A stretch of DNA of 64,000 bases from Cucumis sativus. Lineage: Eukaryota; Streptophyta; Magnoliopsida; Cucurbitales; Cucurbitaceae. The notes beneath the pieces were generated by a model. It did not search any database. It saw only the letters and a program-made list of their open reading frames with translations, and was not told the DNA's origin. Shown here piece after piece: positions 21,301 to 39,100 of this stretch. A program made the translations under genes and the position numbers. Location: the NCBI RefSeq assembly GCF_000004075.3, contig NC_026659.2, positions 3,658,001 to 3,722,000 of the forward strand. Reading direction: 5' to 3'. The stretch's first letter is position 1, and each line of letters starts with the position of its first letter.

Positions 21301-22675
21301 AAGGAGAAACTCTATTATTTTATGTTGGTGGGGAACTCTCTTTTGGGATTAAAAAAAAAAAAGGAAATTCACATTTCTCAATTCTTTGACATATAAAGGT
21401 GTCAAGACTTAAAATATATACAAATATATAAAAATATGTGTTTGGAGAAATAATGAAAAAAAGTATGATAATAGAGCTCATATCACTACATTTTCGAAAT
21501 TGCAAAAATAGTAAATTTAAAAACGTATAACCATTTGATAACCTACAGATAGCCTTATGATATTATTAATTACTTGTCATATTTGAATTATCATCTGATA
21601 CAGTTTTTCTAAGAATATTATATAGATCTATCATCTGTGTCTATCACAACCTAAATAATAGTAGTCTATTCGTGGGTTGTCGTAAATAAAGTATAAAAAA
21701 TTTCTATATTTGTGTAAAATATAACTTTTGGTTAATTTTTACATATTTGAAAACAGCCAACAATTTTTTGTTATTGCTACAAACTTTTCTAGATGATTAA
21801 AGTTTAATAATTTTTTAAAAATCAATATTGAACTAATAGAAAAGGTCTCCACATTACATTATAACAATTGGAGTACTCTATGTGGAGTTGAACACAATGT
21901 GGAAAATTTGTTCATAAATCATACCCATCTCCAGCTGCATTATATATTGTTGTAAATGTGAATTATATCATTGATCACTTCTCATTTGAGCTGTTAACCT
22001 CACAAGGACCTAAACTCTACAATATAAACATATATCTATATATAATTTGTCATTTCTCTAAATGGTTTTATTCAAATATTTAAGTTTATGAATCAACAAT
22101 TTTATAGTTTAAAATGAGAACATAATATTGTTTTCTAATTTCTAGTTATATAAATTCAATTCAGTCTCTATATAGTCAATCAATATATATATATATACTA
22201 TGCATGATCACATCCTATTAGTAATTTAATGTTTAAATGTTTCTTTCAAGTTTCAAGTTGTTTACTATTTAAATGTTATTTGGTTTAGTTCTTTTTTAAC
22301 AATTTTGTTATTTGAATGAGATTTAAGTAAATATTTTCTTTTTATACTTTTCTTAACAACATAATTATGAATGAAATTATTCTAATAGTTTCAAATTGAC
22401 CAAAGTTTCAATACAAGCCAAATTCAAAGTGACTATTTGATAAATTTTGTGTAAACTTCATTCAACAGTTTTGAATGCTCAAATAAGATAAACATTGCCT
22501 TAACATCTCGAACTAACTGGAATCGATAAAATATATGAAAAGAAACTTGACAATATGTCTTATGTAAATAACAATGAGGATAACGAAAATTCACTTATTT
22601 ACACGATGGTATGCTATTTTCTACTTTAGGTGTACACTATATGCTTTTGGATTCATACCATCCAAATGGTCAATC
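18361..22675. other. Long AT-rich intergenic stretch, no gene recognised
   Basis: No family-like open frame on either strand. A good TATA consensus (CTCTATAAAAG) sits near 20532-20542, followed by a mildly GC-rich patch (TTGGCCGGCACC) near 20555-20566, but no coding sequence follows. A long (TA)n run lies at about 21250-21273, and a tRNA-like relic is possible near 20190-20240. Confidence 0.5.
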
Positions 22676-22837
22676 ACTGATGGGGATATAATTGTTCACA
22701 ACTATATATATATATATATACCCATACCGATGATCATTATCTTCTCCTAACTAATTACTGATGGGGATATAATTGTTCACAACTATATATATATATATAT
22801 ACCCATACCGATGATCATTATCTTCTCCTAACTAATT
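22676..22837 (+). repeat. Perfect 81-base tandem duplication
   Basis: Two head-to-tail copies, 22676-22756 and 22757-22837, look identical base for base, including their internal (TA)n tract. Perfect identity implies a recent duplication or an assembly artefact. Confidence 0.9.
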
Positions 22838-24690
22838 AGTGACCTTTGCTTGCACTTCCTAATAATTTTTCCCAGTCTCAAACTCCCCTCATTCCTCCAC
22901 TTTTGACCGTTTGTGAGAGCTTGTTTTTATTTAATGTCGTGATATTTCAATCTACTCGACTTGATAAGTTTACTCTCCAATCCAAATCCACTTGATTTGA
23001 TAGAGCTCTACTTTCTTACCATATTCCAAACCCTTTTTGTCTCATCCCACAAGACTCACTACTTTTGTTCAAAATAATCAACGATCTCACTCACACGTAT
23101 AGGTTTAGATCACCTTAGTTATGATATTAATTAATGGACAAGAACAACAAAGCCTCTACCTATCTCCACATCGTACAATTAGCCCACTGATATATATACC
23201 ATGATCATAATTCTTTTACTTGTGATACCATAACAAACGTTTCACACCAAAGAAGATAATTGTTCACATTTATAAACCCAACCATAATCATATTATTCTT
23301 TTTTAAAATTAAGATCGTTCTTTTTCCAACCAAAAATTCGTTTACACTTCTAACCAGTGGTAGAATAGTAATTACAACTTATAGATTACGTACAGAATAC
23401 AAGAGTAGAATGTTTGAAGATTGAAGTATATATTAGTATTTTGTTATTGGCAGTGTATTTTTCCATTAGTGAGGAATGAAAAGTCAAGATCTAAAGAAAA
23501 GAGATGTTGAAAAAAACATAATGAAAAATGATTGTCCTTGAGAAAATGATGAAAAAGCAAAAGTTGCATCTGCACACACACAACACACAACACACCACCA
23601 TAATTTATGATATTCAAAAAAGTGAAAAACAACAAAATAAAATTATATTATAATGCCTATTTTTCAAAAAGGAAAGATAGAAAAAGAAAAAGAAGAAATT
23701 CTTTGACTATCATTCCAATCATTGCTTAACCTTGTTCATCTTTATCAAACCTTACTTTTAATTCATTACAAAAATCCCCCATAAATTACGATTTCATTTT
23801 ATAATTGTTTTAGTCTTCACTTTTAAATAAAAAATTATTGTAAATAATAAAACTTTCAAAAACATTTACATAATAAAAATTTAGAAAGTAAAGGAGACTT
23901 AGTTATTTCTATAAAATTTAATATTTTATTTTTCATATAAATAAACTTATAAACTTAAAAATTATTTGAAGAGTACCAATCACATCAATCTTGATATCTC
24001 TTTTCTTTTTCCAGTATTACCCTTCTCTATGGTAAGAAATGTATATAGAGAGTTAATCATGGCCCCTAGAATGATCATAACTTGGATGATGCCCAAGAAA
24101 GATTAAGAATGCAAGAAAGTGCCCAAAAAGTATAGGAAATTCCCTTGTAGTTATAAGTTTCTCCCCAAAGCTCCACGAGCATAATAAGAAAAAGGGAAGA
24201 TAGTTATGATAGAAAATTTTTAGTACTACAACGATACTTGCTATTTTCATTGATAATTTGATTAGTTAAAGTTGATTATGATTATACTAATTTTCATTAC
24301 GAAGTGATAAATGTCCTCGTTTTCAACAATAAACTAATTTATTTTTTTCATACTCGCATGGTATTAGAAATTTTTTCTATAGAGAACTTAAATGACCCTT
24401 CGTTTGATGCTCGCCCATACTTTCCGTGTTAAATTTATATCTAATAACTATGCAAGTTTTAAAAAATTTAGCAATTTATTAAACGTAAAATGGATAACTC
24501 AAATAACTTATTAAACACGTGAGAATAAAGGGACATATCTTTATACATAATAATGATATAATAGTTAGCAAACACGTCTTTACATATAAACATTCGTATG
24601 AGCTAGAATAATAATTATAAACTATGGTAAAAACTAAAAAGAAAAAATAAGAACAAACGGACGTATCTTTATACGTAAGAAGTTAATCAC
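22838..24690. other. Intergenic, downstream of MIR399
   Basis: AT-rich; a CA-rich microsatellite lies at about 23570-23597. No supported gene. The 3' part of the MIR399 primary transcript may extend into the right-hand end of this stretch. Confidence 0.5.
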
Positions 24691-24860
24691 TAAGCTATAG
24701 CAGTTCATAGGGCAACTCTCCTTTGGCAAGTTATATAGGAAATGATATAAATATAATAAATATATGTACACATATATATATATGTATTGTGATGAATAAT
24801 TTAAAAGCCAAGAACCTGCCAAGAAAGAGATTGCCCTAAGACTGATTTGCTTATTTGAAG
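24690..24860 (-). ncRNA. MIR399: MIR399 precursor (microRNA399 hairpin)
   Basis: On the minus strand the 3' arm at 24708-24728 gives a 21-nt miR399: it begins TGCCAAAGGAG and ends AGTTGCCCTA, the canonical family sequence. The 5' arm at 24816-24836 contains GGGCAATCTC followed by TTTCTTGGCA, the miR399* position. The two arms pair along their length with one bulged T, one C-A mismatch and two G-U pairs, the usual MIR399 geometry; the loop is about 87 nt. miR399 is made in phosphate-starved shoots, moves in phloem and represses PHO2 (UBC24) mRNA, releasing phosphate uptake and loading. The TATA box and P1BS sites just upstream agree with this identity. Confidence 0.93.
24708..24728 (-). ncRNA. 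MIR399: Mature miR399
   Basis: The 21-nt mature product on the 3' arm. It shows the family core GCCAAAGGAGAGTTGCCC, which targets the multiple sites in the PHO2 5' UTR in other plants. Confidence 0.9.
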
Positions 24861-24908
24861 AACCATCCTTTCACTAGAAGCCATTTGAAACCCTAAACCT
24901 TTCACAAG

Positions 24909-24919
24909 CTTTTATATGC
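24909..24919 (-). promoter_or_regulatory. TATA box of MIR399
   Basis: GCATATAAAAG on the minus strand, about 75-80 bases upstream of the start of the 5' arm. This places the transcription start near 24880, a compact arrangement typical of MIR399 genes. Confidence 0.7.
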
Positions 24920-24970
24920 ACACTTACTCTGACTTTGAGATAAAGAGAATAAAAACCCTCTGGAGCAAAG

Positions 24971-25003
24971 GCATATGCTTGAGGGTTTATGCTATGGATA
25001 TTC
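24971..25003 (-). promoter_or_regulatory. Pair of P1BS (PHR1-binding) motifs upstream of MIR399
   Basis: Two matches to the palindromic consensus GNATATNC: GCATATGC at 24971-24978 and GGATATTC at 24996-25003, centred 25 bases apart and about 50-90 bases upstream of the TATA box. PHR1-family MYB factors bind P1BS to switch on MIR399 under phosphate starvation. The close pairing at the right distance makes functional sites likely. Confidence 0.75.
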
Positions 25004-28000
25004 ATTTTAAAAAATATATATATTTATCTTTGCTTGTTTTGTTGATGTTTTGTGTGATGCTCTGAGTTCAAGAGTGTTTCCCTTGAAAGCTTGCTGTCCT
25101 ATGTGTTATGCTTTATGCCTTAACTCCGTGTAGTTGGGTCCCTAGCTCCTTGTTATTTAATATAGATGTCTTTCAGAAAAGAAATTAATAGAAAAGTATA
25201 CCCATATGATCAAGGAACCTTCCATGTTACGTATCCTCCACTATATCCATATACTTTCAAGTATTCTTTTCCTAATGTGGAGTATTGATCAGAGATTCCT
25301 TCTTAGCAATCTTAAGGGAAGGAAAAAGGATAGGAAGAAATTGTCAATTTTAGAGTTAAAGACCTCATGTTGGTGAGTTTAATTTAGGTGAAAATGAGTA
25401 TAAGTTGAGTTTGTATTTTTCCTCTTTTTGTTTCTAATAATCTTTTATATGCTTCAAATTAACTTACGACCAAGATTTTCTTAGTTTTAACTTTTTAATG
25501 GTAGGTATACATTAATTTTATTCTTCTTTTACTTAATTTGATGATGTATTTTTTAAAATTCTAATTGATCATCGATTAAATTCAACATAGCTATTACTGT
25601 AGTTTTAGAAAAAACAATAGCTTAAAATTTCACAAACTATAAATTTGACTACACTTACTCAGGTTTGCAAGATATGTTTGCAATAATGACCAAGAATTCA
25701 AATTTAGCAACAAGCTTATACAGTGGCTAAAAATACAATTTCATAGACAAACTAATTGCAATATCACTATATTAAACAAATAGGTACATACAATGATGAG
25801 CTTTATATAATTAACTTAATCATAGAATCACACTAATATTTAAACGTTAGATTTTACTAGAGCACCGTCAGTTTGTGACTAAAACCATTTACCAAGTGGC
25901 TATACCACGTGTATATAGTGATGCGCCTAATTTACACATTGTTAATATTTTTGGATTTGTGAAAATGAACATAGATCATTAATTAAGATAGTTCTAATAG
26001 TTGATCAAATCTATATATATATATTTTGGATTTGTATATTTTTCAAAATTGCAATAATGATGGTTTTTCAGGGTATGTTGGTCCTTTTAAGTTGTATATA
26101 GTTAGAGAAACTTGTATCAAATGATAAAAACATTTAAAAAAACAATTTATGACATCATTTTTTTTATATTACGAATATGGTAAAATTAGTGATATCAGAC
26201 AGCTATCAAACGGTAATCATAAGGCTATCAAATGATCATCATTTTTAAATTTGCTACTTTTACAAATTTAGAAAATTTCATGACATGAACTTTATTATCG
26301 TAATTTCTCTTGCTATTTTTGCAAAAGTCCTTACTTTCCCGCTACAAGTTTGATTGCATTAGTTTATATTTTTTGTTGAGCTTGCTACCATGCTTAAGCT
26401 ATATATATATATAACATATTAAAGTTTAAATAAGTTTTCCCTAACACACCATATAACACATCCACTATGTTAGTTTGCCATCTTTATATGCTATTTACAT
26501 CTTTTTATCTCAGAGTTTAGAAGAAGTGTGGTGTATAAATTCTTTAACTCTAGAGAGGCACTTCTATTATGTATTCTGAATTATATTTCTAATACATTGG
26601 TTCTTCTTCAATTCTATGAATGTAGCTAACACACTGTTAGTGAACCATGTAAATCTATGCGTTAATTTTTATTATTATTTTATGTTTTTTTGTTTTCTTT
26701 ATAATTCATTGATTTTCTTAACTATTTGAATTTGTAATTCTATTTTTGAGTTGGACATATTTGAATGAACAATTTAAATCATCGTTCTCTAAATCACGAG
26801 AGCATAGGTCTAAACTAGTGAAAATAATTATGCTTAACTAGGTTAACATTGATACTGAGTTTTGTTGGACTCTTTATATCTTTGAACAAATCTAATTAAG
26901 CTACACAATTAAACGTGCAACAAACACCCAAACTAATTATTCAAAAAAAAATCCAACATTTGACGATTGATTGTCACAACCAACTTTCGAACCCACTTAT
27001 GCAACAAAACTGATCTAATGGCTAACTCTAACAAAGACCACCTCCAACTCTCAATCTTGGTGAAATGACCACCTCTTGATTAACTTCAACGACTACTTCT
27101 GGCAGCCAACTTCAATGATTGTCTCTAATGTGTGACATCCAACAACAACTTTATTGATCACTCCAGCAACCAGAGTTCATTGTAGTTCATAGTCTTCTTC
27201 TATAATAAAAGCACTTTGATTATATCAAAACAAACAAACTTAAATGTGAAAACGCTTCTTTTGGAGAATATATATGTGTATATATAACAAATGAATGCTT
27301 TTTTAGATAATTTTTATAAAGGCATTGAAATAAAAATGAAAAAAAAAAATTGCCTAATCAAATCCAAATGTCCTCTAATGCAACTTGTTTGCAAGAGTCT
27401 CTTCAAAAATTTTATGGGAAAAAAATGTCATTCATAAAATTAAACCAAAGGCTAAAAAACTATTTCAAGGGTTCTTCTATAACAATTTATATATTTTAAT
27501 TCAATTGATATAATATATAGTTTATTATAGTATATTCAAGCTTTTCTTCAATAAACATTGTTTGATGAACCATTTTTTTTAATAATCGTTTATTTACGTT
27601 TGACGTGTCACTGTTAGATATACATTTGTGTTTTATATGCATGGAGTTAGAGATGTTGGTTGCCTTTTCATCTGATCTTACGTATTTGGTGCATATCAAC
27701 CTTGTTTAATTTTCACCATTTCCATACCCATCTCTTACCTAAAAGAAACCTTGAAATTTTTAAGTATATATATATTACTGAGCTTTAGTTATATAGTATT
27801 TTCAATTTAGTCTCTGTAGATTTTCTTTTCTTTTTTTTTTTGTTTGCCATACACACACACTATTTTACCATCCTATTCGAATAATAGGGCATGGGGATGG
27901 GCATGAATGGAAACTAAAATATGTAGAGTTTTTGTTGGAACAGCTACGCTTAAATGAAAATTTCAGCACTGACAGAAACTTTGAATCTGCAGATCAAGAA

Positions 28001-28340
28001 CTGAGCAATAGAACAGACGGACAGCTGCAAAGAAAAAGTGAGGACAAAACGTGCTAAAAGGACTTGTATTGGGTTGTGAGAGCAACTTTCACTCTAACAA
28101 GCCTTTAAAATAAGTAAGGATGATGTTGATAAGTCGTAGGGAGACGTCGGGATCTGAATTCAAATCCTACCTGAAATGTTACAGTTATATTTGAAAAAGT
28201 AGCGAAAATCATTCGAACAAGAATATTACTACAACCACGATCATATACTTTTTAATACCTTCCAGGCGTTCTCCCCTTGTGATTGGATGCCCCATTAATA
28301 AGGCCATAAGGACACATAGGGATTAATCTCGATACAAAAT
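25004..28340. other. Intergenic between MIR399 and the MIR399-like foldback
   Basis: AT-rich, with (TA)n patches and a CA run near 27852. A less AT-rich block at about 27880-28330 may be inserted repeat sequence. It contains GGGCATGGGGATGGGC at about 27890-27905, partly complementary to the 5' arm of the foldback on its right. No protein gene recognised. Confidence 0.45.
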
Positions 28341-28745
28341 TAAGCCAAAAGCAGTCACAGGGCAGCCCCATCGGGCTAAGTTTATGGAATTAACCTTAAA
28401 ATTTCAAATAATCAAGACCTTATATAGTAATCATTTGATTTTGATTTTTTAGTTTTTGAAATTAAAGTCTATAGTATTGTATTCCACGTTTAAATTTATT
28501 GCTTTGCTATCTACTTTTACCAAGATTTAACTTTCAAATTAAAAGAAAAAAATTGAAAACTTGTTTTTGTTTCTTTGACAAAGACAAAACCAATTATTAT
28601 ACAAACTGCTGTAAGAAAAAGGAAAAGAAAAATGACTTAATTTGAAACAATTAAAAAAAAAAAAAAAACTTAAGGGTTACCAAAGTAATTCCAAAGCCAT
28701 GCCCAACATGGGGCTGCCCTACAACTGATTTGCTCACTGAACCCA
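28340..28745 (-). ncRNA. Diverged MIR399-like foldback (candidate miRNA gene)
   Basis: On the minus strand the 5' arm (28701-28722) contains TAGGGCAGCCCCAT and the 3' arm (28358-28377) contains ATGGGGCTGCCCTG. They pair over 12 GC-rich bases, with further G-U pairs and a GGGC/GCCC block beyond a small internal loop. The sequence outside both arms matches the real MIR399 locus 4 kb away: GCAAATCAGT then TAGGGCA before the 5' arm (17 of 19 bases), and TGCCCTRTGA, CTGCT after the 3' arm. This indicates duplication from a MIR399 gene. The mature-position sequence has changed strongly (about AGCCCGATGGGGCTGCCCTG) while pairing was kept. The loop is about 320 nt, long for a miRNA. Function is unproven. 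Confidence 0.45.
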
Positions 28746-28804
28746 CCACTTCTTCCCTTTCTTGGTTTCTCACTTCACCCACTTCCTCTTCATTCATGAG
28801 CTAA

Positions 28805-28816
28805 GGTTTTTATAAG
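28805..28816 (-). promoter_or_regulatory. TATA box upstream of the MIR399-like foldback
   Basis: CTTATAAAAACC on the minus strand, about 85 bases before the 5' arm, matching the spacing at MIR399. No P1BS (GNATATNC) was found in the next 500 bases upstream, unlike at MIR399. Confidence 0.4.
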
Positions 28817-28849
28817 TGCCAATTTGTGTCTGTGTATCACTGTTTACAT

Positions 28850-31250
28850 TTAAACACTGCTGCTGTCTAGTAATCAAACTGTTCGCTTAAGCTTTAAGCA
28901 ATTTTGGGTATCTTTTTTGTTACCCAAGGCAAAAAGAAAAAAAAAGTTGGATTCTTATGCTTTAAATCATAGTCGAGGTCGTTGTCGTGATGATATCACA
29001 TGAATTAGATACTATATAATAGATTCGAAACCCATTGTATCTTTGAGTGCAAACACTTTTAGTGTATGCTATGACTGCTTTTAGTTTAACCTAAAGTTGA
29101 GGTTGGTTTGGTCTATTAGATAGATTGGTCATGTCAATCAATTTTGGATCATGCTTATTAGTAAGAACGGATACATTTCATGAATTGAGTTTATCAATAT
29201 GGAGTGAAGTTGTTTAGTTGTAGGAACTTCAATATAAAAAATTAAAAAGTCATGAAATTAATTTTTTTAGTCGTGGAGCCTACAGTAGATTTAGACGTGT
29301 CTTAAGACTTCAATAGTGTTACATCGAAAAATTATGTGATTATTTCCTCTCTTTTTACAAGTTGAGAGAGAGAATCCATTCCAAACAATATATTAGTGTT
29401 ACATTGGAAAATTATATGTAATTATTTCCTCTCTTTTCACAAGTTGAGAGAATCCAAACCAAACAATGTATTCTTCCATGATATGATTATAAAGGTGACT
29501 AAAGATTTTGTTGTATTTGAATTATAATGTGTTTGTGCATGCATTTATGGACAAATAAACAATGAATCAACCAAAAAAGAATTCAAAATTGTTCAATTTC
29601 AAAAAATTTCTTCCTTAGGCCACCTACGACTATGTAGAACTAAAACCAAATAGAATATAAGCTCAAACCTCGAAAACGAAAAACTCATTTTATCATTTTT
29701 ATAATCAATCATCCATTTGAATTACACTTAAAATGCCATATTTTTTATATGTCAAAATAAATGTTTGATTGATCCATTTGATTTGTTAGAGTACGAAGAT
29801 ATGAGATGGAGATGGAGTTCATATTGATACGGCATATGAAACCAACTTAAAGTTGTTTTCTCGTTTGATATATATAGCATTAATTGATCCAACTTAAATG
29901 TTATCTGAAGTGTTTGCAATTATTAATGAACATATAACGTATGGTATGTTTGACGGTAATTTTGAAATGACGAAAATCACTTTTCTAATTGTATTATGAG
30001 TGGAGAATGCAAAAAGTTGTAACCATTACGTCATACTTCACAAGCTAACCAAGCCATAGCCAATGGGTCTTTGCAGCAGAAGTTAGAAACTTTTGATCCC
30101 TTCAGTAAAAATTAATTCAAAAGCAACTTTACTTTGCCTTACCCAGAAAATTAGAGAAATTATTTAAGGACCTCTAATTTGTTACTAAAAGTAACTACAA
30201 AAATCATGGATACAAAACCAAGTGAGTTTGTAGTCCATTTAAAATAGAAAACAATGCACTATATTGAGTTATGTTGTCCTAGTTAGATTTAACTTGAATC
30301 TAATTCATGGTTTAGATTAGTTATACTTTTTTTTCCTAGTCTCTGAGATGGTTTTATCTCCAAGAAATTACATGATAATCATTAAGAGGAAAAGAAACTG
30401 CAGCAAATGCTATTTTCTTTAACTTTTCCAGAGCACTATCTAATCCAAAGATAATTTAATCAGCAGTATTTTAGAGCATTAGCAATCAAGATTAGTGCTG
30501 CTAAATATCTCATCTTAGTCAAATCATGTCGATTGTCTATGAAATCAAATACAGCAGAATGAACATTAATGGATCAGCCGAAGTTCAGAATTTACCTTGT
30601 ATTCATGGCCAGCACCCAAATCTGTATCTGCTGTTGTACAATATTTTAAAGGCACAAAGACTGTTAGGACTAGTGATTCGAATTACTAATCTCTTAATTG
30701 GTTAAAGTGTATATACCTAAACCAGTTAACTGCTCATCTAAAAATTGTTAACTATGCTTGAATTGGTCTGTTGAGTGGAAGTTAGAAATATCATTAGACA
30801 TAGGAAGGGTGCAGTTACATCAACTAGATGTTTTGTTATCAGGGGTAGCCACATTACAGTAACCTCATTCAATAATTTTAATTCTATAGTTCCCATAGAA
30901 AACCAAATATATATATATATGCACAAGTACAACATTTATCACATAACAGTTTTGTGGAAAGAAGCAGTTCAATCAAACAATTCTCCACTGTCAGGGATGC
31001 ATTAAACTCTTAAAACCCATCAATTACATTCAAATATGTTACTATATTCAATTTGAGGGTGAATAGAACATTTAATTCTTCAATGTAAACCGTATGTTGA
31101 AAATATACAGAAGAAAAAAGAGGGGAAGGGGAAAAAAGTTCATAAAAGAATTAGAACAAGCTGTAAAGATATAGAGTAAAACCAAAATTATTGCTCAAAG
31201 AACTTTACAAATGTAAATGCTGTAGCTACCACCAGAATGGTTTCATCACG
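28850..31250. other. Intergenic; one weak exon-like segment
   Basis: No complete gene recognised. A minus-strand segment at 30596-30627 is bounded by CAG and GTAAAT and stays open in one frame (TDLGAGHEYK with its upstream context). Its product is unknown and no flanking exons can be joined with confidence. The right end should hold the 3' UTR of the Ycf20-like gene. Confidence 0.4.
29315..29472 (+). repeat. Imperfect 80-base tandem duplication
   Basis: Copies start at 29315 and 29395 with AGTGTTACAT and run to AACAAT(A/G)TATT. They differ by several substitutions and short indels, for example GAGAGAGAGA against GAGAGA, so this duplication is older than the one at 22.7 kb. Confidence 0.8.
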
Positions 31251-31255
31251 TGCTG

Positions 31256-31726
31256 TTAACTAGCAAGTTTGAAAGCATCAATGAAAAGACCATAAGTGAA
31301 TCCCATTTTGAAGTTGTTCAGTAGAGCAATGGGGAAAGTTACCTTTGGTCGACTGTAATAAAATCGAGTAACATACTCGGTAAGGAGAACGCATACCACA
31401 GCAGCTATAACATCATTTACTCCTAAAGCGCCAAATGACAATGAGATAGTCTGTGCCACATAAAAGCCACCCAACAATGAGATTCCTCCAAAAAGAGCCC
31501 TCCTTGAAGGACTTCGAAAGTAATTTCTCGAGAGCTCAGGCACGAGTCTAATGATATCAACTAACCTACGAGGACCTCCGGTATCTTGCACAGCTTTGAC
31601 ACGAAAGCTACGAGGAGGGGAAGGTCGTGACTTAACCATATCATATCTCCAATATGAAGGATTCATTTTAGGAGTAAATCCATAATTTAAGAGGCTAGTA
31701 TGGACTAAACTTGCAGATTGTGCCAT
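31256..31726 (-). CDS. Ycf20-like protein (DUF565), probably chloroplast-targeted
   Basis: Single coding exon, 156 aa, starting MAQSASLVHTSLLNYG. Residues 1 to about 45 are rich in Ser, Pro and basic residues, like a plastid transit peptide. The conserved DUF565/Ycf20 part runs from about residue 50 (RRLVDIIRLVPEL) through ALFGGISLLGGFYVAQTISL and GVNDVIAAVVCVLLTEYVTRFYYS to the C-terminal LLNNFKMGFTYGLFIDAFKL, with two or three hydrophobic segments. Arabidopsis relatives include NPQ6 and NPQ7, needed for normal non-photochemical quenching, so a thylakoid or envelope role is likely by family. A 5' UTR intron is predicted: noncoding exon from 32194 upward, donor CTAG|GTATT, acceptor TATAG at 31742-31743. 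The gene is divergent from ABCB28. Confidence 0.9.
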   Translation of the reverse strand: MAQSASLVHTSLLNYGFTPKMNPSYWRYDMVKSRPSPPRSFRVKAVQDTGGPRRLVDIIRLVPELSRNYFRSPSRRALFGGISLLGGFYVAQTISLSFGALGVNDVIAAVVCVLLTEYVTRFYYSRPKVTFPIALLNNFKMGFTYGLFIDAFKLAS

Positions 31727-32260: not shown

Positions 32261-33132
32261 AAAAGAGAATCACCAATTTGGAAATTGTGATTACAAAATT
32301 TAACGAAATTACTATTTTGTCCCCCGAAAAATAATTTTGGGACAGTTTCAAACAAAAATAATTTACATCACAAATTCATATTATTATCACTCAAACTAAA
32401 ATAATTTACATCTAAATCTAAATATTACAACACTCATTTCTTAGATTTTGTATCATCTATAAACTTTAATAAGCAACAATTTAATTTTTATGTTTTAAAA
32501 TTTTAAGCAATTTACAATTTCGTTCTTATTGTAAAAATTTTCATCAAAACTAAGCGTCAATTCTAGAGACTAAATAAATTTGATTTTTAATTCTACCTAG
32601 GTAAGAAAATCTACTAGTTTTGTAATATTTCACACAATAGGAGTAAATCATTCAAAAGGTGGAAACTATACCAACAAATTTAAAGCTTATTAAAATTAAG
32701 TGAATAAATTATGGAAAATTTGGAAATACAATAACTAGCAATTTTTACCTTTTAAAACTAACAATTTGATAGACTAGTTTTTCTTGGAAAATTTTGAACA
32801 AGATTTACCATCGAGATTTGATTTCAGGGCCTAGGTGATTGAAATTTTGAAAGTGGCATTTGTGACCATGAGCAGTTATAACTACTGGCTACCATCAGTT
32901 GGCTAAGAAGAGAAAAGTGGTTAGCCAATAGAAACAGAAAAGATGTAAATAAATTTTGATTTTAACAACAAACAAACAAGAAATTGAAGAACATGGCCAA
33001 CTCCATGCCCAATTCCTTCCTCCTTCTTCATGCCTATGTCTATCACTTTTAAATCTCCACCAGAAAATAAGAAAGAAACTCTTAACCCAAATTTCAATTC
33101 TCTATCTATTTCAGCAACCTCCATTTTCTTCC
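32261..33132. promoter_or_regulatory. Shared upstream region of the divergent Ycf20-like and ABCB28 genes
   Basis: About 0.75-0.85 kb separates the leaders of two divergent genes for predicted plastid proteins. The central part is AT-rich. The right 200 bases (32930-33132) are pyrimidine-rich and probably the ABCB28 5' UTR. An in-frame ATG at 32956 is separated from the chosen start by 59 codons of low-complexity sequence and is not favoured. Confidence 0.4.
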
Positions 33133-36100
33133 ATGTCTTCTTCTCTAATTCTCTCTCTCCCTTTCACTCTCAAGCCTTCTCACTTCCCCAATCAAACTCC
33201 CAAACTTCCCAATTCCTCTCTTTCCCTTCTCCGTTCATCATCTTCCTTCGCGCCATTTTCAACTCTAACACCTTTCAAGGTCTTTAATGGTCCAATCAAG
33301 AAAAGTAGCAGTTCTACTTTCGCCTATGTCACCGGCCCTGCGTCGGACCCTAATGTCAGCGAGTCCGACCCTAAGGTTGATGACGCCTCCGATTCCCTGG
33401 TTCGGGTTGTTGGAGTCTTGAATTTGGGGTTGTTCTTGAAGCTTTTGACCAAGCATAAGCTAAGGCTTCTGGGTTCTTTGCTTACTCTTCTTTGCTGCAC
33501 TACTTGTACTCTTTCAATGCCGTTTTTCTCTGGTATGATTATGCATTTTATTTTTTTGCTTTTGTAATTGTTGAATTTTCTCTCTATTTGAATTCTAAGT
33601 TAGTAACTGTTTTGCTATTGATACTGTGTATTAACTCTTAAATCACACCCTGTTTTATTGAGCCATGGCAAACTTTTCGAAAGAATAATAATTAATTGAA
33701 CCATGTCAAATAACCCAATCACAAAATGTAGCTACATGATCAAGCTGAGTAAAAAGATCACCAAATTTTGAAAACAAGATATTTAAATAAATACTTCAAA
33801 AGATAGCACCTTGAAAAGAGTTGTGTACTTAACTGTAAGAATGTCTGTAGTTAGTTGGGAAAATATCTAAAAGGAAAAAAGAAATTGACCCAACATTAAA
33901 TTGTTTATTATCTGCACCCCAAATCATTCTTGTATTATACTAATGTGACAATCAATGAGTAGAAGTATTCCTTACTACCTTGGTTGTAGAAATCTTTCCA
34001 TGGTCTTGAATCTTGAAAAGATGAAAATTAAGCTAATTGTAGGAATTAATTGCACACGGGATGAAATTTACTCACGTACCGATTGCAGGGTACAAATTGA
34101 GCTCCCAAAAGAGAGAAAAAAGATGAAACCCACACAACGTTCTAAATGGCATGCATGCTTCAGTTACATAGTTTTATTTTCAATCCTGAAGGTTTCATGG
34201 CTTGCTTTTGTAGGTAGATTTTTTGAGGTACTTATAGGTGCAAAACCTGGTTCCCTGTGGAGGCTTCTTAGTACAGTTGGAGTTTTATATGCATTGGAGC
34301 CAATATTGACTGTTTTATTCGTCACAAACATGAATTTCATGTGGGAGAAAGTTATGTCAAGATTAAGAGCCCAAATTTTTGGAAGGTTGCTGATTCAGAA
34401 GGTAATATTTTTTTTTTTCCGTTGTTAATTACAGTGTTGGAGTGTCTCTTAGTTTTATTTTAATATGCCGTGCTATTGAAGTTGACAGTTTGTACGCTGA
34501 ATGTTCTATCACAGCTTTGCCACGCCAAGTAAATATGTGAAATTGTTGGTCTTCTGATTTACATTCTCCCTTTTCCTTCTCAGGTGGAATTCTTTGACAG
34601 ATACAAGGTATGTATATTGAACCACTTAAACTTTCAGATTATGGATGCTTTTAGTAGCTTAAGCTAAATCTTCCCTGTAAAAGGACTACAAAGGAAAAGT
34701 CGTTCTGCATGTTGTTCTCTATTGTTATTGTAGAGACCGCCTGCACCAATTAGGGCAGAAAGATTTCTAGCTTGGATATTGTCCTCTGAATTCAAACTCC
34801 CTTGAATAGTGACTTAATAAACTCTTCCTTTCCCATATATTTATCTCGATTGGAATGTTGATTTCTTAGTCAAATATTCAATTAAATTGACTTGGACTTT
34901 TCCTTTTTAAGGTTGGTGAAATTACCGGATTGTTAACTTCTGATTTGGGATCTCTCAAGGATGTGGTGAGTGAGAATGTTTCAAGGGATCGTGGATTCAG
35001 AGCGTTCTCTGAGGCAAGCAACTCTTCACCAAGTACAAGTGAGCTGTGTGTTGCCTGTATTTGGCATATAGATTTGTTTCACTGTTGCTGATTGATATGT
35101 AGTGTTCTTATCTGAACTGGTTTTTCTCTTTGATTTTTTTTTATATTCTTAGATTTTGTGTCCAATCTTTTACTTACTTTCTATATTCCTTGTAACTGTA
35201 TTGTTGAAAAATATGACTAAGTTTTTTAGTTGGTTGGTTCGTGGTTGAACATAATTTCCTACTTCTGTGAACCTTTAGCTGGTTGGTTCGTGGTTGAACA
35301 TAATTTCCTATTTCTGTGAACATTTAACAAAGTTGCGTAATTTTTAATTTTCATTTCATTCTTTTCACTGAACAGTTCGATCTTGTTGCTCATGTTTATT
35401 GTTTCCTACAGGTGATTGGAACAATATGTATATTATTTGCTTTGTCCCCCCAGCTTGCACCTATTCTTGGCCTGCTGATGCTTACGGTATCTGTTTCAGT
35501 GGGTAAGTTTGTCAGTTCAGCTGGGTTCCAGCTATTTTCTTTTACAGTACTCTTTATAGACAAATTTTTTCTTCCTCTTTCTCTCGTCTTTCTTGGAACA
35601 CATTTTTATGTTTGATGAATACTTAGTCAATGAAGCCTGTCGCTCTAGTTCAATTGTATATTTTGACCAAATTATCATGACCAACTTGGATGGCCCTTTT
35701 ATTTTTACGTATGTTTGTACGTGTGCATGTGCTCTCCTACTTCTAAGTGATGCTGGGAATGTAAAGATGTTATAAATTCAAATTGAGTCCTCTTTCTAAG
35801 GGTCATACAGCTTTGAGAAGTGTGTTTCCTTAGTCTGTCGTTATTTCCTGAATCCAATTAGAACCCATTTTATATACGAGCCATTTTCCTCTTAGGTATA
35901 GGTTAAGGTCAGATGGCTTTAACAAAGGCAGCCATCTGAGCACCTGTAATTAACACACATGTTCTACTTAGGCATCCAAAATGATAGCCGGTGTACCAGG
36001 AAAAGATAAAGCAGAAGCAATTTACAGTTATAACAGAAAGCTATAGGCTACACCAATTTTCATGTCTTGTATTTTCTCAAGTTGAAATGCTGACTTTCAT

Positions 36101-39100
36101 TTCTCTCAAGCTGTATACAAGCGATCAACTATTCCTGTATTTAAAGCCCATGGGTTAGCCCAAGCGTCCATGGCTGATTGTGCAACTGAGACATTCTCTG
36201 CAATTCGTACTGTGAGTTCAAAATACTTTGCTGCTTGGATTATCTCACTAAATTTAAAAAACCGGACCCATAGAATTCGTTCGATTTCTTTTGTTGAGAT
36301 ACAAAGTCGTTGATACAGGTGAGATCCTTTGGTGGTGAGAAGCGTCAAATGTTCAATTTTGGTCGCCAGGTAAGATATTATTAGGAACTGTGAAGGTGCC
36401 TTCAGATAAATCTCGGTCCCATGTTAGTCTACGGAATATTATTTATGTATTCTTGGATTTTGGCAGGTTATGGCGTATGAGAGCAGTGGCATATCACTTG
36501 GGACTTTCAAATCTCTGAATGAATCTCTAACTAGAGTTGCTGTTTATATTTCGCTTATGACATTGTATTGGCTTGGAGGAGACAAAGTGAAAGCGGTAAT
36601 TTCCAAAATTTTCCTACTTATTTCTAAGTGTTTTAATATTGGGGTTTTCTTGAGGAGAGAATTGTGTTATACAGAGAAATATAAATTTTTCTAGTTAGTG
36701 TGGTAGATGAGAACTATACACTTTTTTAGAGAGAAAGGTAAGATAGAGAGACAAAGGGATTAATTAGAGAAATAAACTTCTCTCATAAATGAAACTTTTA
36801 ATGGTAATGGAAGGGTCCAATTTTTTATAGGCTTGAGGATTTAGTTTTTACAGTAAAAGTTTGCGGTGCAATTGTAATACCTCCTGATGTACAAGTATAA
36901 GAAATGAGTTGTCCTTCTAGAATGAGGTCCTCTGTATTCTTTTATTTTGGATAGTATGCCTTTTTGTAATGTTGGTTTTTAAATATTCGTTCGTAATTTC
37001 GCTATATCAATTTAAGTTACGTTCCCTTCTTCATTTGAATTTAAATATATGTCTATGTGTGTATCTGTATTACATCTAATAATAAGATTATTTTTTACCT
37101 TGTTTTGTCCATCTTTAATTATTCATATTATCTCCTTGCAGGGTGAACTTTCTGTTGGAACCATGGCTTCTTTTATTGGATATACTTTCACGTTAACATT
37201 TGCTGTGAGTCCTCTTCCTCTTTGGTTTCTATTTCTCAATAATCCCATTCTTCATTACTGACCCAATTAGCATTTTCAGGTTCAAGGATTAGTAAATTCA
37301 TTTGGAGATCTCCGTCGAACTTTTGCCGCTGTTGAAAGAATTAATTCTGTTTTAAATGAAGAGGTTGATGAAGCCCTTGCATATGGATTAGAAAAAGAGA
37401 TGCAACAAAAAGAATTTAGATATAAGTTGTTATTCTCCAGCGATGGAAATAGTCAAGTGAAAACACAGTACATGGCAGCCCTAAAATCTTCTAGCGACAT
37501 TATCAATCTTGCTTGGTCTGGTGATATTTGTCTTGAAGGTAAATATCTTGCAGTTTCCAATATCCACTGTGAATAGTCTCCTTGTACTCGAATAAATATA
37601 TTGGTAGAAAGAATTATTTATGTTTGTTTTTCCCATCAAGTGCTTTCTACGTTTGTGCTGTGGCATTTATAATAACTAATGAATGGTTAAACCTTGCTAA
37701 GTCAAGTGTTGATACAAGAGTTCGTCTTAGTAGGTGAAACCTTTTCATTGCTATGTTAATCCATCGTTTTCTAGAGCTAAATTTCTTTGATAACCGGAAT
37801 GTGTGAGATTGTCCTAGTTGAGATGTGCATAGGCACCATTTGGACACACACAGATATTACAATAAACAATCTCTTTTCTAAATCCGATTTCCATGCCTTT
37901 GCTCTCCAAGGAAATATACACTAATACAATGAGCTGTTCATGGTTGTGCTCACTTTGAGATTAGAAACTTGTTTTCTATAATTACATGTACTAAAGGTAA
38001 GGAGTTTCAAACTACACATTGCATGCCAATTGAACTATCTTGCTTTGGCATTTTGAGAAATGAATTAATGTGTTAATATGTTCTCGTTTCTTGTCTTGCA
38101 GATGTGTGCTTTTCTTATCCTTTGAGACCTGACGTTAACGTTCTTAGCGGTTTGAATTTAACCCTTAAATGTGGAACCATAACGGCACTAGTGGGCGCTA
38201 GTGGAGCAGGAAAGAGTACAATAGTGCAGCTGTTGGCACGTTTTTATGAGGTGAAACTTCCCTTTTATATCATCCAAGTTCAGTAATATAGAGATTGGTT
38301 CATGACATCGATATGCTTATTCTACAGCCAAAGCAAGGGCAGATAAAAGTTTCTGGTGAAGATATTCGAGCATTTGATAAGAGAGAATGGGCTCGGGCTG
38401 TCTCAATAGTGAATCAAGTAATATCTTGGCCTACTTAAAACTCACATTGAACATCACGATACTACTTAGCTCTTACCTTGAGAGGCTAAAGATTGAAACA
38501 GTGATCATTAATATTATAATTGACATACATAATGATTGCCCCAGTATATATATATTTTTTCTAGTTTATAAAAACAAGAGGAAAAGGAGAAAAAGGAACA
38601 AAAAAGCTAATAAGATGATGATTCAGGAACCTGTTCTTTTTTCGGTATCTGTTGGAGAGAATATTGCATATGGACTTCCAGATGATAATGTAACAAAGGA
38701 TGAAGTTATAAAGGCAGCCAAAGCTGCAAACGCTCATGACTTCATTATTTCACTTCCTCAGGTTTGCTATATTCTTGAATGCACGTATTTTGTTTTGCTA
38801 GCTCATTTCTTGCTATTAACATAGTCTTATTCTGGAAGGGCTATGACACGCCAGTGGGTGAACGTGGAGGCCTTCTTAGCGGTGGCCAACGACAGGTATT
38901 GCAACAAAGACATCAGAAGAAATTTTGCGTTTGTTTGAGAAAAGAGATACTGACATTTAACTTACCATTGTAGAGAATTGCAATTGCGAGAGCTTTGCTT
39001 AAGAATTCTCCAATTCTTATACTTGATGAGGTAAGTTTGTATTGATCACGTCCTCTATGTCAACTGCATTCTTCTTCCTGCCCTGTTACTAGGGAAGAGA

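Follow-up and report, generated by a model that had tools for sequence, protein, structure and literature searches.

The window analysed here, a 64-kb stretch of the cucumber (Cucumis sativus) genome, contained a canonical MIR399 hairpin and, 3.9 kb away on the identical strand, a second foldback at 28341–28745(−), whose sequence and coordinates were as given in an earlier sequence-only reading (Table 1). The two arms of this second locus enclosed a loop of ~320 nt (28379–28697), and the distance from outer arm end to outer arm end was 362 nt. The 3′ arm, at the miR399 position, reads TAGCCCGATGGGGCTGCCCTG; the UGCCAAAGGAGAnUUGCCC-like mature form of miR399 was absent from the locus, and scanning the 64-kb window with the mature miR399 pattern matched the neighbouring hairpin alone. 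Among the frames scanned, the nearest recognised coding frame upstream of the locus was a DUF565-domain frame of 156 aa at 31256–31726(−). Frames at 33000–39000(+) resembled ABC transporter exons by eye, and two pieces of them had no Pfam match. The window also contained tandem duplications at 22672–22833 (81 nt, 99% alike) and 35225–35322 (49 nt, 94% alike).

Table 1. Features of the MIR399-derived locus and its canonical neighbour (positions in the 64-kb window)
Feature	Position	Strand	Remarks
Neighbour canonical MIR399 hairpin	24697–24848	−	Rfam MIR399, 43.1 bits; mature miR399 at 24708–24728
Two P1BS motifs upstream of neighbour MIR399	24971–25003		No counterpart at 28341–28745
MIR399-type 3′ flank TGCCCTGTGACTGCTTTTGGCTTA	28341–28364	−	Alignment with neighbour
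3′ arm at miR399 position	28358–28378	−	Predicted 20–21-nt small RNA; exact ends inferred
MITE-like repeat copy, most of loop	28416–28685	−	Genome matches and copy alignments; 5′ end ± ~6 nt
5′ arm	28698–28719	−	Located by position; counterpart of melon 22-nt RNA a23_244052, one base different (PMC3163571)
MIR399-type 5′ flank GCAAATCAGTTGTAGGGCA	28715–28733	−	Exact pattern shared in this genome with neighbour MIR399 alone; flank score test
TATA-like box	28807–28814	−	Motif match only; 94 nt upstream of 5′ arm

The genome (226.6 Mb; 88 contigs, of which seven are large) was searched with the Rfam MIR399 model (RF00445), which gave at least 13 matches, corresponding to at least eight loci when both strands of one hairpin were counted once. 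Among the matches listed, C6 carried three canonical MIR399 loci, C1 and C5 two each (the C5 pair near 2.10 Mb), and the window one. Several hairpins in the clusters at C6 29.70 Mb and C1 20.16 Mb matched the model on both strands, and C1 20162589–20162725 was above the gathering score on both. At gathering scores, Rfam yielded no match in the 64-kb window, neither at the locus nor at the neighbour, whose score falls below the MIR399 gathering score of 57, so that a default search misses it. When E-values of up to 10 were allowed for positions 24000–29500, the canonical neighbour was the sole credible match, and the locus was not reported by the MIR399 model.

The descent of the locus was instead recorded in its flanks. 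The 5′ flank pattern GCAAATCAGTNNTAGGGCA had two perfect matches in the genome, namely the locus and its neighbour (41 matches with two mismatches). In local alignments between the two, the 5′ and 3′ flanks scored 34 and 26, values reached by 0 and 16, respectively, of at most 20,000 random draws, from which those near both loci were skipped and in which the other MIR399 loci were kept as background. The other seven MIR399 loci gave flank scores of 14–20 (5′) and 12–22 (3′). Since both flanks match the neighbour, the locus is, on sequence evidence, a tandem duplicate of MIR399 by descent. The foldback is genuine and derives from MIR399; the earlier observation of MIR399 sequence outside both arms is confirmed, and the proposed status as a diverged MIR399 paralogue is supported. 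The locus is no longer a MIR399 in its mature sequence, Rfam match, upstream motif or PHO2 pairing: it shares with RF00445 the outer flanks, the arm positions, the strand and the place beside a canonical copy, but it has a rewritten mature sequence, no Rfam match, no upstream P1BS motif and no PHO2-like site that we could find.

The arms pair as GGGCAGCCCCAT / ATGGGGCTGCCC, with 12 uninterrupted Watson–Crick pairs, nine of which are G–C, in agreement with the claim that 12 GC-rich bases pair perfectly at the rewritten miRNA position. In the minimum-energy fold, this block lay inside an uninterrupted helix of 19 pairs, followed by a 2-nt bulge and six further pairs. Inverted-repeat cores of at least 12 nt within 450 nt numbered 23 in the window, and that of the locus was the most GC-rich (9/12; the next had 8); no such core with nine or more G/C was found in 20 shuffled windows. 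By the usual rule, mismatches in a plant microRNA duplex are few and its asymmetric bulge is small; the duplex of the locus, with 17 pairs and a 2-nt bulge, is of this kind.

A hand alignment with the neighbour, in which the neighbour's bulged base was set aside and a short indel zone was left out, provided 17 comparable pairs. Ten of them were unchanged, five had changed on both sides and were still paired, one had changed on one side and was still paired, and one was broken at the loop end. The duplex had therefore been rewritten and remained paired, as proposed, with one of 17 pairs broken. Four of the both-sided changes were inside the perfect 12-pair block, and the fifth was outside it. 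The predicted duplex energy was −35.9 kcal/mol at the locus and −25.9 kcal/mol at the neighbour.

The loss of the mature miR399 sequence and the absence of an Rfam report at E up to 10 would also be expected if the locus were a defunct MIR399 pseudogene with only fortuitous pairing between its arms, a reading that we consider very unlikely, as the observed energy was seldom reached in simulated decay and a matching melon 22-mer has been sequenced with its star strand (described below). In the decay simulations, which are approximate in that they start from assumed ancestors, substitutions of the same kinds brought the neighbour to −35.9 kcal/mol in 2 of 20,000 runs (11 of 20,000 with the basal pairs protected). 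With GC-rich random substitutions applied to four possible ancestors, the observed energy was reached in 0 of 20,000 runs for each, and the longest helix in 26 to 92 of 20,000. The pair count alone was not unusual (2,141 and 2,965 of 20,000).

The mode of arm change fits both stepwise compensation and hairpin template switching, with gene conversion as a further candidate. In template switching, one arm would have been copied from the other in one or a few events, consistent with the 12 perfect pairs holding four both-sided changes; such switching has been put forward as a way for a stem to arise or be repaired in one event (PMC8794818). However, one of the five both-sided changes falls beyond the perfect block, several of the substitutions (A to G or T to C) would equally result from a stepwise route through G–U pairs, and we lean somewhat against template switching while regarding it as a serious candidate. 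The stems described in the available text of PMC8794818 likewise stay perfect through multi-base change, but those cases are mammalian microRNAs and rRNA studied with reconstructed ancestors.

The long loop, which the sequence-only reading had regarded as a weakness, has the length that was claimed, and this weakness is explained by the insertion of a transposon-like element. Positions 28407–28572 matched 23 other places in the genome (E of 1.8e-6 or lower), and an alignment of 19 copies showed that the element occupies the greater part of the loop. Its ends are of the form TTAGG..GTTTGGTAACC and GGTTACC..GGCCTTA, which we take to resemble those of Harbinger-type MITEs. Seven copies with both ends had lengths of 263–301 nt. 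The 5′ end of the element can be read in two ways, with TTA before the element or with TTG on both sides. Most of the long loop is thus a MITE-like insertion. This insertion looks old, because the locus copy differs by 32% from the consensus of the seven copies, whereas the copies themselves differ by 14–20%, a rough comparison given that the copies had been collected for their resemblance to the locus copy and partly shape the consensus.

The insertion also bears on the RNA folding check, which came out differently for the arms and for the whole. The arms were in the 19-pair helix, but the whole fold including the loop was no better than shuffled sequences (z = −0.48; 32 of 100 shuffles as good). 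With 28413–28685 removed, the resulting 133-nt empty site folded at −59.6 kcal/mol (−53.8 with the alternative element boundary), and its z of −5.96 was inside the range of the eight canonical MIR399 loci listed (−5.42 to −8.13). An annotation rule limits plant microRNA precursors to about 300 nt; the cucumber locus, at 362 nt (353 nt in melon), exceeds this length because of the loop element.

The presence of a MITE-like element with inverted ends raises the alternative that the GC-rich arms are transposon terminal inverted repeats rather than a MIR399 duplex. This is highly improbable, as the ends of the element fall inside the loop and each arm is bordered on its outer side by MIR399 flank sequence. 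Moreover, the arms do not occur in many genome copies, as those of a transposon would: the 3′ arm had no other genome match at up to three mismatches, and the 5′ arm had one, with three mismatches, on C4 and without a comparable partner arm.

The strongest evidence comes from melon, for which a counterpart of the 5′ arm has been published. Table 3 of PMC3163571 lists a23_244052 (GGGCAGCCCCACGUUGGGCAUG), a 22-nt RNA represented by five sequences including variants, with one genome hit, a potential precursor of 353 nt (MFEI, −0.9263) and a miRNA* marked as sequenced. It was placed among the potential melon-specific miRNAs, and the available text of the paper makes no tie to MIR399, to a loop transposon or to cucumber. 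This RNA and the cucumber 5′ arm have the same base at 21 of 22 positions, and the precursor lengths are 353 and 362 nt, respectively. The single difference, at nt 12, leaves the predicted duplex energy unchanged at −37.1, which is weak support for constraint because equal or greater stability is predicted for 14 of the 66 possible single changes. The RNA starts with GGGC, presumably the expected start of the MIR399 star strand, and this fits an unchanged basal cut.

From the sequence and the precursor length, we infer orthology between the cucumber locus and its melon counterpart; given the similar spans, the loop element is probably present in melon too. The melon RNA, one base off, suggests that the MIR399 copy is still processed, with processing published for melon only, and the possible new small RNA of the sequence-only reading is supported by this 22-mer and its sequenced star strand. 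In turn, the melon candidate gains a probable origin in MIR399. Literature searches with long pieces of the cucumber arms gave no match in open-access main texts. In the same texts, 11-mers of the arms led to PMC3163571 alone, as did a separate search with the 5′ arm in its melon and its cucumber version. The main texts searched contained no cucumber small RNA from the locus, GGGCAGCC was absent from the available main text of a paper on four other cucurbits, and a literature search on MIR399 neofunctionalization gave no match.

Upstream of the arms, the locus differed from its relatives. The phosphate-response motif P1BS, which we took as GNATATNC, was found within 210 bp upstream in all eight canonical MIR399 loci listed. 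At the locus, none was present in 1990 bp upstream (the nearest was at 1996), and the nearest 600 bp contained a single one-mismatch form. P1BS was present in 4.4% of random 210-bp stretches of the window, and among random stretches of 1990 bp about two thirds lacked it; the locus therefore resembles the background, unlike its relatives. Judging from the absent motif, the locus is probably outside the phosphate-starvation regulon, and the phosphate-starvation link that had been suggested is less likely. A TATA-like box was located upstream of the 5′ arm at both the locus and the neighbour (at 94 and 80 nt, respectively).

Target prediction, which had been suggested as a check, was run for both arms, but no convincing target for either was obtained in searches of the unannotated genome sequence that allowed few mismatches; the proposed new targets are thus unsupported, and sites beyond these limits may exist. 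No other target site was found in the genome for the 3′ arm (up to three mismatches in 21) or the 5′ arm (up to three in 22). A G–U-tolerant pattern with one mismatch gave seven non-self sites, compared with four for the reversed control, and the closest of the seven is located in sequence that by eye appears non-coding. With one mismatch allowed, a 13-mer matched 10 non-self sites (control, 4) and a 15-mer matched 4 (control, 1). The site with the best score (4 with the 20-nt form and 5 with the 21-nt form) was rejected because it is antisense to a frame that by eye resembles a short-chain dehydrogenase.

As a control, sites at C6:29245208–29245536 were scored at 1.5, 2 and 2.5 with C1-type miR399 and at 3 at best with the neighbour's miR399. 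The gene downstream of these sites contained two pieces of a ubiquitin-conjugating domain, and the closest solved structures to one piece were UBE2O-type E2 enzymes, as expected of PHO2. This PHO2-like gene (C6 29239200–29246936) carries three miR399-type sites upstream of the domain pieces, and it had no site for either new arm at a score of 5.5 or below.

Taken together, we consider it likely that a MIR399 copy became a different, still processed microRNA gene of Cucumis, probably outside the phosphate regulon, with the processing published for melon only. A microRNA gene born from a MIR399 tandem duplicate would be transcribed from its own TATA-type promoter into a primary transcript, which DCL1 would cut at the ancestral MIR399 base position, so that a duplex of a 22-nt 5p strand and a 20–21-nt 3p strand would be released from the stem beneath the enlarged loop. 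Loaded into an AGO protein, one of the two would repress targets distinct from PHO2; the locus itself would have left the phosphate-starvation regulon. Beyond the melon 22-mer and its star strand, these steps are drawn from general plant microRNA biology. The 22-nt length and asymmetric bulges have been tied to the triggering of secondary siRNAs, according to the available text of a review (PMC5902766).

The locus might also be processed without having a selected job, as a drifting MIR399 relic that DCL1 cuts by chance. The lack of a convincing target, the few melon reads (five sequences including variants) and the absence of the canonical upstream motif are all in line with such a relic, which we find credible, though not to the point of adopting it: the pairing has been kept and strengthened over many changes, while the loop element has come to differ by 32% from its consensus. 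The more far-reaching proposal, in which the duplicate both escaped from the phosphate regulon and became the founder of a distinct Cucumis microRNA family by an in-register, hairpin-templated rewrite, with targets of its own and as a DCL1 substrate that still worked once the transposon had filled the loop, appears rather doubtful to us. For the reading that we prefer, a different microRNA gene derived from MIR399, a close parallel is the series miR390–miR4376–miR7122, in which a conserved microRNA is thought to be the parent of families with other sequences and targets (available text of PMC5902766). That series has reported targets and phased siRNA, whereas the cucumber locus yielded no convincing target in the genome searches and has its likely parent copy 3.9 kb away.

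The finding touches on the long-standing question of how a conserved microRNA can turn into a different one without a broken-hairpin stage. With a likely parent copy 3.9 kb off, descent recorded in the flanks, arms that are still paired and evidence of processing in a sister species, such a route becomes testable by comparison among cucurbits. Overall, the locus represents a microRNA hairpin that seems to have tolerated a transposon in its loop, and a candidate once called melon-specific receives a probable origin.
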